DNA of 64,000 nt from positions 994,678 to 1,058,677 of the forward strand of contig WELB01000025.1 in assembly GCA_009602725.1 (NCBI GenBank), given 5' to 3'. A program made the position numbers and the translations under genes. Positions within the stretch are counted from its first letter, which is position 1. Each line of letters opens with the position of its first letter. This DNA is from Spirogloea muscicola. Taxonomy: Eukaryota; Streptophyta; Zygnematophyceae; Spirogloeales; Spirogloeaceae. The notes below the pieces were generated by a model. The model was not told the origin of the DNA, made no database searches, and saw only the letters and a program-made list of their open reading frames with translations. Below are positions 9,359 through 59,215 of the stretch, piece after piece.

Positions 9359-9735
9359 GGAGCGGAGATACGCGATGAGTTTGCGTGAGAGTCGCTGACT
9401 CGACCTACTCCAGCACTTGCGCGGCGTGCTATAGCCAAGGGCAGCAGAGCGAGCAGCCAGCTTCCTATCTGTCGCTCTTGCGACGACGAGTTTCGGCCTG
9501 TTTGCAGCGTGCTCAGGCTAGTGCCTTGCACCAGAAAGCTGGGCGAGCTCTAGTTGGTGGCAGAAGGGCTCCGTTTCTGGCATCTGGTATTCATGCATCG
9601 AGTAGTGACCTTTATATTTTGACCCGTGGTTATTGAGCGGGTCATTCTGCTGTAGGTTATGTAGATCTTAGATGTGCTTGCCTTTGTACTTGGCCATTTG
9701 GCCTACATTTCTTTCTAATACACGGAATTACCTTT
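9359..9735 (+). mobile_element. Class C RGY LINE, 5'-truncated
   Basis: The body aligns with the C-terminal endonuclease region of the other LINEs: a DEF box near 9,375, SCLQRA...ALHQKAGRAL near 9,505-9,550, and the terminal peptide SSDLYILTRGY-stop at 9,604-9,636. The 3' tail has CTTTGTACTTGGCCATTTGG and the end AATACACGGAATT. A second LINE body begins directly after this tail. Frameshifts are present upstream of about 9,440. Confidence 0.75.
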
Positions 9736-18840: not shown

Positions 18841-19078
18841 CGAGAGGGAAGGCGCGCGGGGCGCATGGAATGAAAGGGAGGCCAATTCAAGCCAATTCAT
18901 TTTTTAAAGAGGGAGGGCGGACCCCCCGGCGCCCTCCTGCCGGCTTCAACTGCTCCTTCTGCAGGGCCCCAACTTATAAGAATTCCGTGTATAAGAAACA
19001 AATGTAGGCCAATGGCCAAGTTCAAAGGCAAGCATATCTAAAGACCTATATAACCTACAGCAGATTGACCCTAATAAG
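18841..19078 (-). mobile_element. Class B and class C tails, minus strand
   Basis: Reversed class B tail end (GGCGCGCGGGGCGCATGGAA, GGGAGGCCAATTCAAGCC) at about 18,850-18,900, then a reversed class C tail (AATTCCGTGTATAAGAAACA, GGCCAATGGCCAAG) at about 18,980-19,075. Neither carries codons. Confidence 0.75.
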
Positions 19079-34434: not shown

Positions 34435-34635
34435 GCCAAGCTTCAATGCTGCCGGCTCCCTTGCGCAGGTCTTTTGAATGAGGCTGGCGGTCTCGCTACA
34501 GGCGCTCTTTGGCGTGCTTTGTAGTGTAGTCCTTTCTTGGCACTTTCTTTGGCTTTGGACATTGTCCATTCTTTTTGGGTTGGCTTTGCCAGCCCCTCCT
34601 TGTTTTCTTCTCTATGGGCGAGCTTTTCTTCTTTA
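34435..34635 (+). mobile_element. LINE remnant with T1 tail
   Basis: A short body (FNAAGSLAQVF, a stop, then MRLAVSLQ) near 34,443-34,500 runs directly into the T1 tail: GTAGTGTAGTCCTTTC, CTTTGGACATTGTCCATTC, hairpin GGGTTGGCTTTGCCAGCCCC, CTATGGGCGAGC. The terminal peptide is deleted. Confidence 0.8.
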
Positions 34636-34985
34636 GCTTATGCGGTTCACGCGCGCGCTGGCCGCGCTATGGCTGCTGCTTCCGGGTCTCGGCTGAGTGC
34701 CGCTTTTCAAGAGAACTCCGTGTATTAGAAACAAATGTAGGCTTTTCCTGCTTCTAGTTACTCTGATCTGCTGTTGCTCACACGTGGATATTCAGCATCC
34801 ATCTGAATCTCAGAAGAATCTCCCTCTGCACCGTCTCGTGCTTTGTAGTGTAGTCCTTTCTCGGCACCTTTCTTTGGCTTTGGACATTGTCCATTAACTA
34901 AAAAAGACTTCTTTTTATTAACGGGCTTTTCTTGGATTGGCTTTGCCAGCCCCTCTTCTCTATGGGCTAGCTCTTCTTCTGCAGC
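34636..34985 (+). mobile_element. Class T1 RGY LINE 3' end with a tiny insertion
   Basis: AYAVHARAGRAMAAASGSRL is interrupted at 34,709 by a 32-base insertion and resumes as SYSDLLLLTRGY (stop lost). The T1 3' untranslated region follows. Its hairpin leader is disrupted between 34,899 and 34,940 by an unrelated A/T-rich, partly palindromic segment before GGCTTTGCCAGCCCC and CTATGGGCTAGC. The uninterrupted twin is at 57,940-58,205. Confidence 0.8.
34709..34740 (-). mobile_element. 32-base class C tail fragment flanked by a 7-bp duplication
   Basis: The inserted bases are the reverse of the extreme 3' end of class C tails (CTACATTTGTTTCTAATACA plus a few bases). GCTTTTC occurs on both sides (34,702-34,708 and 34,741-34,747), while the twin at 57,995-58,030 has a single CGCTTCTCCTGC. 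The repeat is best read as a target-site duplication, making this a retroposed insert of only 32 bases. Confidence 0.75.
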
Positions 34986-47905: not shown

Positions 47906-47934
47906 GCTCGGCCCCCGCTCAAGGTAAGGTTTTG

Positions 47935-48240
47935 TGTATTAGAAACAAATGTAGGCCAAATGGCCAAGTCCAAAGGCAAGCACATCTAAAGATCTACATA
48001 ATCTACAGCAGATTGACCTGTTCAATAACCACCGGTCAAAGCATAAAGGTCACTAATCGATGCTGGAATACTAGATGCCAGAAACGGAGCCCTTCTGCCA
48101 CAACTAGAGCTCGCCCAGCTTTCTGGTGCAAGGCACTAGCTGAGCACGCTGCAAACAGGCCGAAACTCGTCGTCGCAAGAGCGACAGATATGCAGCTGGC
48201 AAGCCCATCTCAGCCGGAAACACATCTGCACGTCGAGTGT
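47935..48240 (-). mobile_element. Class C RGY LINE 3' end, minus strand
   Basis: On the minus strand the codons for YLSLLRRRVSACLQRAQ and a GEL.LW-type damaged middle are followed by the class C tail (CTTTGGACTTGGCCATTTGG, CTACATTTGTTTCTAATACA). It closely resembles 9,470-9,735 and 58,965-59,215. Confidence 0.82.
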
Positions 48241-48429
48241 AGCCTAAATTGGCAATGTTTTGAAGGAGTGTGGAAACGAGGACCTCGACAGCCAATTATG
48301 TCGAAAGGGGGCTGCCCGTGCGCCTCCGGGCCTCCTTCCCGCCCTCTCCGGCCCCTTCATTTCCTGTTTGTAGAGAATCACTTTTTGTCAGAGTGGACGG
48401 GGCTTCCAGAGGGCACGGAGCACGCGGCT

Positions 48430-57894: not shown

Positions 57895-58205
57895 CCTTCA
57901 GACCTTGTCCAGTCCTATGGCCTGGCCTGGCCTTTCTTTGGCTCATGCGGTCCACGCGCGGGCTGGCCGTGCTATGGCTGCTGCTTCCGGGTCTCGGCAA
58001 AGGGCCGCTTCTCCTGCTCCGAGTTACTCTGATCCGCTGTTGCTCACACGTGGATACTGAGCAGCCATCTGCATCTCCCTCTGCACCATCTTGCACTTTG
58101 TAGTGTAGTCCTTTTTCAGCACCTCTTTCTTTGGCTTTGAACATTGTCCATTCTTTTTGGGTTGGCTTTGCCAGCCCCTCTTCTCAATGGGCGAGCACCT
58201 TCTTC
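57895..58205 (+). mobile_element. Class T1 RGY LINE 3' end, reference copy
   Basis: SLAHAVHARAGRAMAAASGS and SYSDPLLLTRGY-stop (58,060) are followed by the whole T1 tail: CATCTGCATCTCCCTCTGCA, GTAGTGTAGTCC, CTTTGAACATTGTCCATTC, hairpin GGGTTGGCTTTGCCAGCCCC and CTCAATGGGCGAGCAC. It links the T1 tail to its coding class and serves as the empty-site partner for the 34,709-34,740 insert. Confidence 0.88.
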
Positions 58206-58720
58206 TTTCCAAGCCACCAGTCAACCTGGCCGCGCCTTCTTCTTTTGGAGCCTATTCCTTCAGACCTTGTCCAATCTTTGGGCTGGCCTTTCTCAGCCAC
58301 CAGTCAATCTGGCCGCGCTTTCTTCTTTTGGAGGCTGTTTCTTCTGAAGAAACAGCTCTTACAATTCACGGCAATGGCTGTGAGAGGACAGCCCCAAGGA
58401 ACGAATCTTCCATAGATGGGCGATGGCTGTGATGGATAAATCTGAGGGCTGGCTTCTCTCAGCCCTTGCCTTCCTTGCGGCCCTTTCGGACCTTGTTCTC
58501 TGTCGGCCTATTTCTGGGCTGGTCAATCTTAGCCATCGCCCTGGCTTGTCCAGCCCCTATCCTCACTGGGCGAGCCCTTTCTTTCTTATGAAAGAGTCCT
58601 CCTCTCTCTTGGGCTGGCCTCTCGCAACTACTGCCGGTACGTTGCAGAGCCCTCTTTCATGGAATAGCTGCTTCTCTTCTCCCAGCCCTCGCACTCAGTG
58701 AAAGTGCTGCTTCTGTCGGG
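58205..58720 (+). mobile_element. Run of LINE tails, mainly T2
   Basis: A T2 half-tail (AAGCCACCAGTCAACCTGGC, 58,208) precedes a full T2 tail (58,255-58,335, hairpin GGGCTGGCCTTTCTCAGCC). After a reversed class D tail (58,360-58,400) follow plus-strand hairpins near 58,446-58,465, 58,513-58,540, 58,548-58,575 (class A half-tail with CTCACTGGGCGAGCCC), 58,607-58,625 and 58,715-58,740. Spacing is 50-100 bases. Hardly any coding sequence remains. Confidence 0.72.
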
Positions 58721-58959: not shown

Positions 58960-59215
58960 TCTTGATTGTAGCGATGTCCAGCCCCCTGCTCAGGCTAGTG
59001 TCTTGCACCAGAAAGCTGGGCGAGCTCTAGTTGGTGGCAGAAGGGCTCCGTTTCTGGCATCTAGTATTCATGCATCGACTAGTGACCTTTCTGTTTTGAC
59101 TCGTGGCTATTGAGCGGGTCAATCTGCTGTAGGTTATGTGAATCTTTAGATGTGCTTGCCTTTGTACTTGGCCATTTGGCCTACATTTGTTTCTAGTACA
59201 CGGAATTACCTCCAG
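58960..59215 (+). mobile_element. Class C RGY LINE 3' end
   Basis: It starts at CCCTGCTCAGGCTAGTG, runs through the codons for HQKAGRAL and TSDLSVLTRGY-stop (59,113), and ends with a full class C tail (CTTTGTACTTGGCCATTTGG, AGTACACGGAATTACC). It is nearly identical to 9,515-9,735, so this class was active fairly recently. Confidence 0.85.

Follow-up and report, generated by a model that had tools for sequence, protein, structure and literature searches.

A 32-base sequence that interrupts a T1 LINE copy in the genome of Spirogloea muscicola is very probably the product of a severely 5′-truncated LINE insertion that occurred by target-primed reverse transcription. The insert lies within a stretch of 64,000 nucleotides (contig WELB01000025.1, positions 994,678 to 1,058,677), which was analysed as a whole and is referred to as the window. 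It belongs to the class C LINE family and carries the fixed 3′ end of that family, a short spacer and a target-site duplication; the corresponding empty site is present in other T1 copies, and the same pattern was found in part of the other class C copies. Short stubs of this kind recur in the S. muscicola genome. The positions of all features within the window are listed in Table 1.

Table 1. Positions of the insert, its T1 host and the further class C copies within the window.
Feature	Position	Strand	Remarks
Left GCTTTTC copy (7-bp target-site duplication)	34702..34708	+	Where the inferred primer strand ends; present once in empty T1 sites
5-nt spacer AAGAG (CTCTT in LINE sense)	34709..34713	+	Absent from the class C 3′ consensus and from the empty site
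27-nt 3′-terminal class C LINE fragment	34714..34740	-	One difference from the consensus
Right GCTTTTC copy	34741..34747	+	First two bases GC (34741-34742) also match the LINE, possible microhomology
T1 LINE host copy, 5′-truncated, with ORF-end remnant ...SDLLLLTRGY	34630..34984 (approximate)	+	Interrupted by the insert
T1 twin with empty site	57934..58152 (stretch 57934-58114 aligned)	+	GCTTCTC at the site
Tail-only class C copy, about 91 nt	18981..19071	-	Best direct repeat only 5 bp
Class C tail of about 274 nt	9456..9729	+	No duplication found
Class C tail copy, about 221 nt	58987..59207	+	Best direct repeat only 5 bp
Class C copy of about 377 nt, 3′ end degenerate	47928..48304	-	Best direct repeat only 4 bp

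The layout of the insert region (34702-34747) is exact to the base and consists of GCTTTTC, 32 bases (34709-34740) and again GCTTTTC, located in the terminal coding remnant of the T1 host and antisense to that remnant. An earlier sequence-only reading had described a 32-base LINE tail fragment between two copies of a 7-bp duplication; the duplication was confirmed, whereas the tail origin does not hold for all of the 32 bases. As the 3′ end of the class C family lies at ...GGAATT, which reads GGAGTT in the insert, 27 bases belong to the LINE and the remaining five represent a spacer. The GC of the right duplication also fits the LINE, and the reverse-transcribed part therefore comprises 27-29 nt. 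The + strand corresponds to the would-be cDNA strand, on which the primer end GCTTTTC is followed by AAGAG, by 27 nt complementary to the LINE tail and by the second GCTTTTC. A search of the genome (153 Mb, 471 contigs) with the 32-mer, allowing up to three mismatches, yielded 29 places including the window copy, while the reversed 32-mer as control yielded none at the same threshold.

For alignment of the T1 copies, the host flanks without the insert and without the second duplication served as query, and they were compared with the window and with 25 further loci. Of the 47 genome matches other than the host itself, 29 fall in these 25 loci. Thirty-five T1 stretches span the insert site, and the gain of 39 bases (32 + 7) was exclusively found in the window copy; none of the 34 others in this sample, six of which are distant relatives with 73-81% identity, carries the insert. 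No indel occurred within about 10 bases of the site in 33 of them, and the remaining one (L003) displays a different gain of 12 bases. The main T1 copy at a further locus, L005, fell just under the alignment length cut and was not counted, and it is also free of the insert at this position. The usual empty T1 site reads GTGCCGCTTTTCCTGCTTC with a single GCTTTTC, demonstrating that the second copy arrived with the insertion. The twin near 58 kb, which had been proposed as an empty site from the sequence alone, was borne out with a single copy at the site. Locus L005 (G000:C25:982720-985977), which lies ~10 kb upstream of the window, also holds a T1 copy with a different insert of ~65 bases at about positions 1617-1681; by eye, this resembles a window repeat near 58245-58325 (CCTTGTCCA...GGCCGCGCTTTCTTC), and its duplication comprises at most 2 bp.

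At least 191 class C tails are present in the genome. Read in the orientation opposite to the 32-mer, the recovered copies have in common the 3′ terminus ...ACACGGAATT, give or take a base change, and their reach in the 5′ direction differs, the shortest comprising about 28 bases and the longest at least 1245. A fixed 3′ end along with variable 5′ truncation is the pattern of a LINE; a SINE as source of the insert was rejected, as the 5′ ends vary continuously. Seventy-five tails were read, 29 of which came from the 32-mer places, 40 in listing order from the at least 191, and six from the window and fetched loci (76 rows had been collected, from which L123, a member of the sister family, was removed). 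One of the 40, the intended copy L078, has the same 3′ junction as L077 and was left out for that reason; a neighbouring copy that is cut off, and hence censored, was used instead. The 3′ junctions of L077 (G000:C80 about 100770) and L078 (G000:C88 about 4628) are identical over at least 85 bases on different contigs, indicating that the locus was probably duplicated after the insertion.

Short copies are frequent among these tails: 24 of the 75 are below 100 nt and 15 have a length of 28-57 nt, with one more cut off by the fetched stretch. When copies cut off in this way were treated as censored, the truncation rate per nt was 0.70% at 28-60 nt (15 events), 0.41% at 60-100 nt and 0.24-0.25% beyond 100 nt (22 events at 100-335 nt), corresponding to a 2.9-fold ratio between 28-60 nt and 100-335 nt (one-sided P 0.002). 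Part of this skew towards short lengths could stem from duplicated loci or from selection acting against long inserts. The search pattern is blind to copies of less than 28 nt, which places the 27-nt insert near the edge of detection. Three patterns designed for still shorter copies returned 3 + 3 + 1 places, six of which turned out to be longer copies altered by base changes or minor rearrangements; the seventh (L154) has kept ~16 nt of the tail, shows no clear duplication and may be due to chance. As the search below 28 nt is low in power, no lower size limit is claimed.

Direct repeats between the two junctions were sought in the 49 of the 75 copies with a readable 5′ flank; the other 26 have less than 30 nt of 5′ flank in the fetched sequence or reach the end of the reference. 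As a control, the 5′ and 3′ flanks of different copies were paired in 200 re-pairings. Duplications of at least 7 bp were identified in 14 of the 49 copies (control mean 0.87, maximum 4) and those of at least 6 bp in 18 (control mean 2.6, maximum 8), about two to three of which would be expected by chance. Class C duplications span 6-13 bp. Within this sample, flanking duplications are thus well above the control also for other tail-only inserts, as repeats of at least 6 bp occur in 12 of the 26 copies of up to 120 nt and in six of the 23 longer ones. In the register searched, 31 of the 49 copies had no duplication of at least 6 bp, among them the other four class C copies of the window and several of the shortest (L011, L016, L106, L028 and L036). 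The insert in L016, a tail copy of 35 nt, is enclosed by an inverted repeat (GTTGAAGC...GCTTCAAC) in its flanks.

Empty sites were also identified for two more tail-only inserts. The junction of L033 (52 nt), in which TT separates GGAATT from the duplication, is empty in eight fetched loci (L132-L139), one of them identical over 80 nt; the joined flanks of this copy have 44 matches in the genome. For L037, the empty site was verified in a single locus, L125. The joined flanks of L021 yielded no decisive empty site, as the matches stop at or just past the junction on the left flank or are gapped. In the 5′ part of L037 (about 35-43 nt), the GGCCTACATTTG of the LINE looks partly repeated, as would be left by a reverse transcriptase that slipped or restarted before it stopped. 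At the 5′ junctions of the 18 copies with repeats of at least 6 bp, 2-6 nt are shared between duplication and LINE in six cases, 1-7 extra bases are present in eight, and four are joined directly. Overlaps of at least 2 nt in six of 18 copies correspond to a P of 0.0006 under an expectation of 1/16, a rough model that is biased upwards by the choice of the longest-repeat register.

The 3′ terminus of the element is often separated from the duplication by a spacer, which in LINE sense usually consists mainly of pyrimidines. Where a repeat of at least 6 bp is present (18 copies), the spacers comprise 0-6 nt and 40 nt in total (T 25, C 10, G 3, A 2), so that on the cDNA strand they consist mostly of A and G. 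Class C targets also tend towards pyrimidines in LINE sense, with 81% pyrimidine in the first three bases of the duplications in these copies. We infer that, on the simplest reading of the spacers, the target primer receives untemplated purines before the enzyme engages its RNA. Reverse transcriptases favour purines in untemplated addition. According to the excerpted text of PMC8857657, 3-4 nucleotides are added by the R2 reverse transcriptase without a template, and template jumping depends on such an addition or on a primer overhang.

With regard to the spacer only, the RNA itself might instead have a heterogeneous 3′ end, with a tail rich in pyrimidines. This tail would pair with purine-rich primers and show its whole length only at targets that do not match. 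Such a tail would agree with the 75-97% pyrimidine at positions +1 to +5 after GGAATT (75 copies, LINE sense) and with the sister family, which continues with ...GATCTCTT or ...GATCTCTCC in several rows. In addition, the two longest spacers, CTCTT in the insert and CTCTGT in L037, both start with CTCT and are located at targets that are not pyrimidine-rich; the insert's own target (GCAG/GAAAAGC in LINE sense) differs in this respect from most class C sites, which counts against the target-primed account given here. However, the spacers differ between copies in both length (0-6) and sequence (TT, CT, GT, TC, CTT, CTTA), and they are rich in T (62%), whereas the neighbouring target positions contain more C. 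We therefore consider a real RNA tail a plausible explanation, albeit one that we would not bet on.

Two other origins of the insert as a whole have to be weighed against target-primed reverse transcription. The bases might represent filler from the repair of a staggered double-strand break in T1, copied from an existing LINE copy without any reverse transcription at the site. In favour of filler, the insert is short, short extra bases are also present at some class C 5′ junctions, and 31 of the 32 bases recur at one other locus, C257 (L010), where the GGAGTT variant is present as well and the spacer agrees at four of five positions. The agreement of the spacer is weak evidence, as spacers are pyrimidine-rich in general, and random filler would not end within a few bases of the class C 3′ terminus, where many inserts of many lengths end as well. 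Together with the strong enrichment of duplications, this renders a filler origin improbable. A transcript from the L010 locus that carries bases of the L010 flank is a possible, weakly supported source.

Even less probable, to a degree that we would hardly expect it, is that the insert was once a longer LINE copy that was later shortened by an internal deletion. The T1 host is old (about 82-90% identical to the nearer other T1 copies), which leaves time for such an event, but the deletion would need to have ended exactly at the 7-bp duplication, and in five other tail-only copies (L019, L021, L023, L024 and L107) the duplications likewise reach the truncation point.

The element that gave rise to the insert was characterized through its longer relatives. 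A long but broken copy with a class C tail, L038, contains a frame resembling a reverse transcriptase and a second frame upstream of the tail; its reverse transcriptase fragment scores only E 0.12 in Pfam, and as a query it recovered close relatives in long open frames. All 150 places scored in the genome search (of 1014 candidates) match the class C reverse transcriptase. Among these, 19 copies of a sister LINE family score identically (78% to the query), and 13 of them lie in open frames of more than 1200 codons, which suggests recent activity of this family. The sister family (L066, L067, L069, L112-L131) has 411 tails with up to two mismatches to ...ACACGATCTC, and in the majority of the rows read pyrimidines come next. 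A full-length source with exactly the 3′ end of the insert was not identified, and the intact frame, L066, belongs to the sister family and has a slightly different tail.

The L066 frame comprises 1350 codons, read from stop to stop, and has a zinc-finger-like motif near the N-terminus (by eye) and a reverse transcriptase domain (Pfam RVT_1, E 1.1e-16, aa 637-835 of the 1350-aa frame) with weak PDB matches to group II intron and R2 proteins. A Pfam scan of this frame gave no apurinic-type endonuclease domain at E <= 1, and searches of the element pieces against PDB by sequence and profile gave nothing significant. In the C-terminus, a CCHC motif and the E...D...DVV positions are invariant in six aligned sequences. 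This piece has no Pfam match and no PDB match by sequence profile, and its structure model (pLDDT 66; order helix, three strands, helix, strand) has no PDB fold match at E <= 0.001; the best match, a moderate one, is the R2 protein 9nl2_A (Foldseek prob 0.99, E 0.036, TMq 0.45). A model of reverse transcriptase plus C-terminus (790 aa, eight sequences) reached a pLDDT of 37 and was set aside. We read the C-terminal part as probably a restriction-like endonuclease of the PD-(D/E)xK-like type with a CCHC motif, as in LINEs of the R2/NeSL/R4/CRE/HERO group; that Pfam listed no apurinic-type domain agrees with this group. The T1 frame, which ends ...SDLLLLTRGY compared to ...SDLYVLTRGY in L038, has upstream residues resembling the donor C-terminal alignment by eye, and T1 and the class C donor LINE are accordingly grouped, by eye, into one superfamily.

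How the insertion proceeded, where the spacer came from and the enzyme responsible are inferred, as follows. The LINE endonuclease would have nicked the T1 copy after ...GCTTTTC-3′ on the + strand, and the reverse transcriptase would probably have added about five untemplated purines (AAGAG) to the nicked primer. It would then have engaged the 3′ end of its own RNA, copied about 27 nt and stopped. With the opposite strand cut at a distance of 7 bp, the cDNA end may have been joined to it, perhaps aided by the 2-nt match of GC, and fill-in would have yielded the 7-bp duplication. That a target-primed event may stop after ~30 bases and still leave a stable insertion had been suggested by the sequence-only reading, and it is the most likely account of an insert that is unique among the aligned T1 copies, has the fixed 3′ terminus and is flanked by a duplication proved by empty sites. 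Early stopping would also account for most class C tail-only fragments, as had been proposed for the whole swarm: the short-skewed lengths and the two further tail-only inserts with empty sites fit this proposal, whereas the 31 of 49 copies without a duplication of at least 6 bp speak against it.

More tentatively, and with the balance of probability somewhat against it, this R2-like LINE lineage might have a distinct early-abort step, in which untemplated purines are added and a few tens of bases are copied before the reverse transcriptase, as often happens, lets go and the host seals the stub. If so, micro-insertions of ~30-60 bp would not be rare accidents but a lasting class of mutation. 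Stops within ~30 nt reveal the first steps of target-primed insertion, i.e., the primer end, the bases added before the template is engaged and the shortest cDNA that can be joined. As repeats of many copies supply the empty sites, this early phase is readable from one genome; it is easily missed because the stubs are hard to recognize. For annotators, unexplained insertions of 30-60 bp can be LINE stubs.

The insert is an extreme case of ordinary, already known LINE 5′ truncation; what is notable is the shortness of the product, the spacer and the identity of the element as R2-like and not site-specific. Human L1 and zebrafish L2 carry apurinic-type endonucleases. Their insertions are characterized by 5′ truncation, element-specific duplication lengths and microhomology or extra nucleotides at the 5′ junction, as described in the excerpted text of PMC4245944, and the class C 5′ junctions resemble the annealing and direct pathways set out there for 5′-truncated L1 and L2 copies. 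Unlike L1 and L2, 15 of the 75 class C copies comprise only 28-57 nt, and the extra bases are located at the 3′ junction. Among the titles and abstracts listed from the open-licence literature on very short LINE insertions there was no report of tail-only swarms, and nothing was found in the open-licence literature on a pyrimidine preference along with the restriction-like endonuclease type.

The 28S rDNA-specific R2, which has a restriction-like endonuclease, is like the donor in its N-terminal zinc-finger-like motif, reverse transcriptase and C-terminal CCHC motif and, going by the moderate fold match, probably also in a nuclease-like fold. R2 resides in one 28S rDNA site, the criterion of the R2 clade, whereas the sampled class C copies lie in many unrelated flanks with a preference for pyrimidine tracts and, in another difference from R2, make duplications of 6-13 bp. 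Closer in this respect are the non-site-specific R2-like elements of Blattella germanica (excerpted text of PMC7650587), which like class C are not confined to one site, and the elements of the HERO clade (introduction of PMC4640811), LINEs of the restriction-like-endonuclease/R2-like type without a single site. The tail-only swarm is a class C feature that was not found described for either of them in the portions of these sources drawn upon. Based on layout and the moderate fold match, the donor would thus be best placed as a non-site-specific R2-like LINE.
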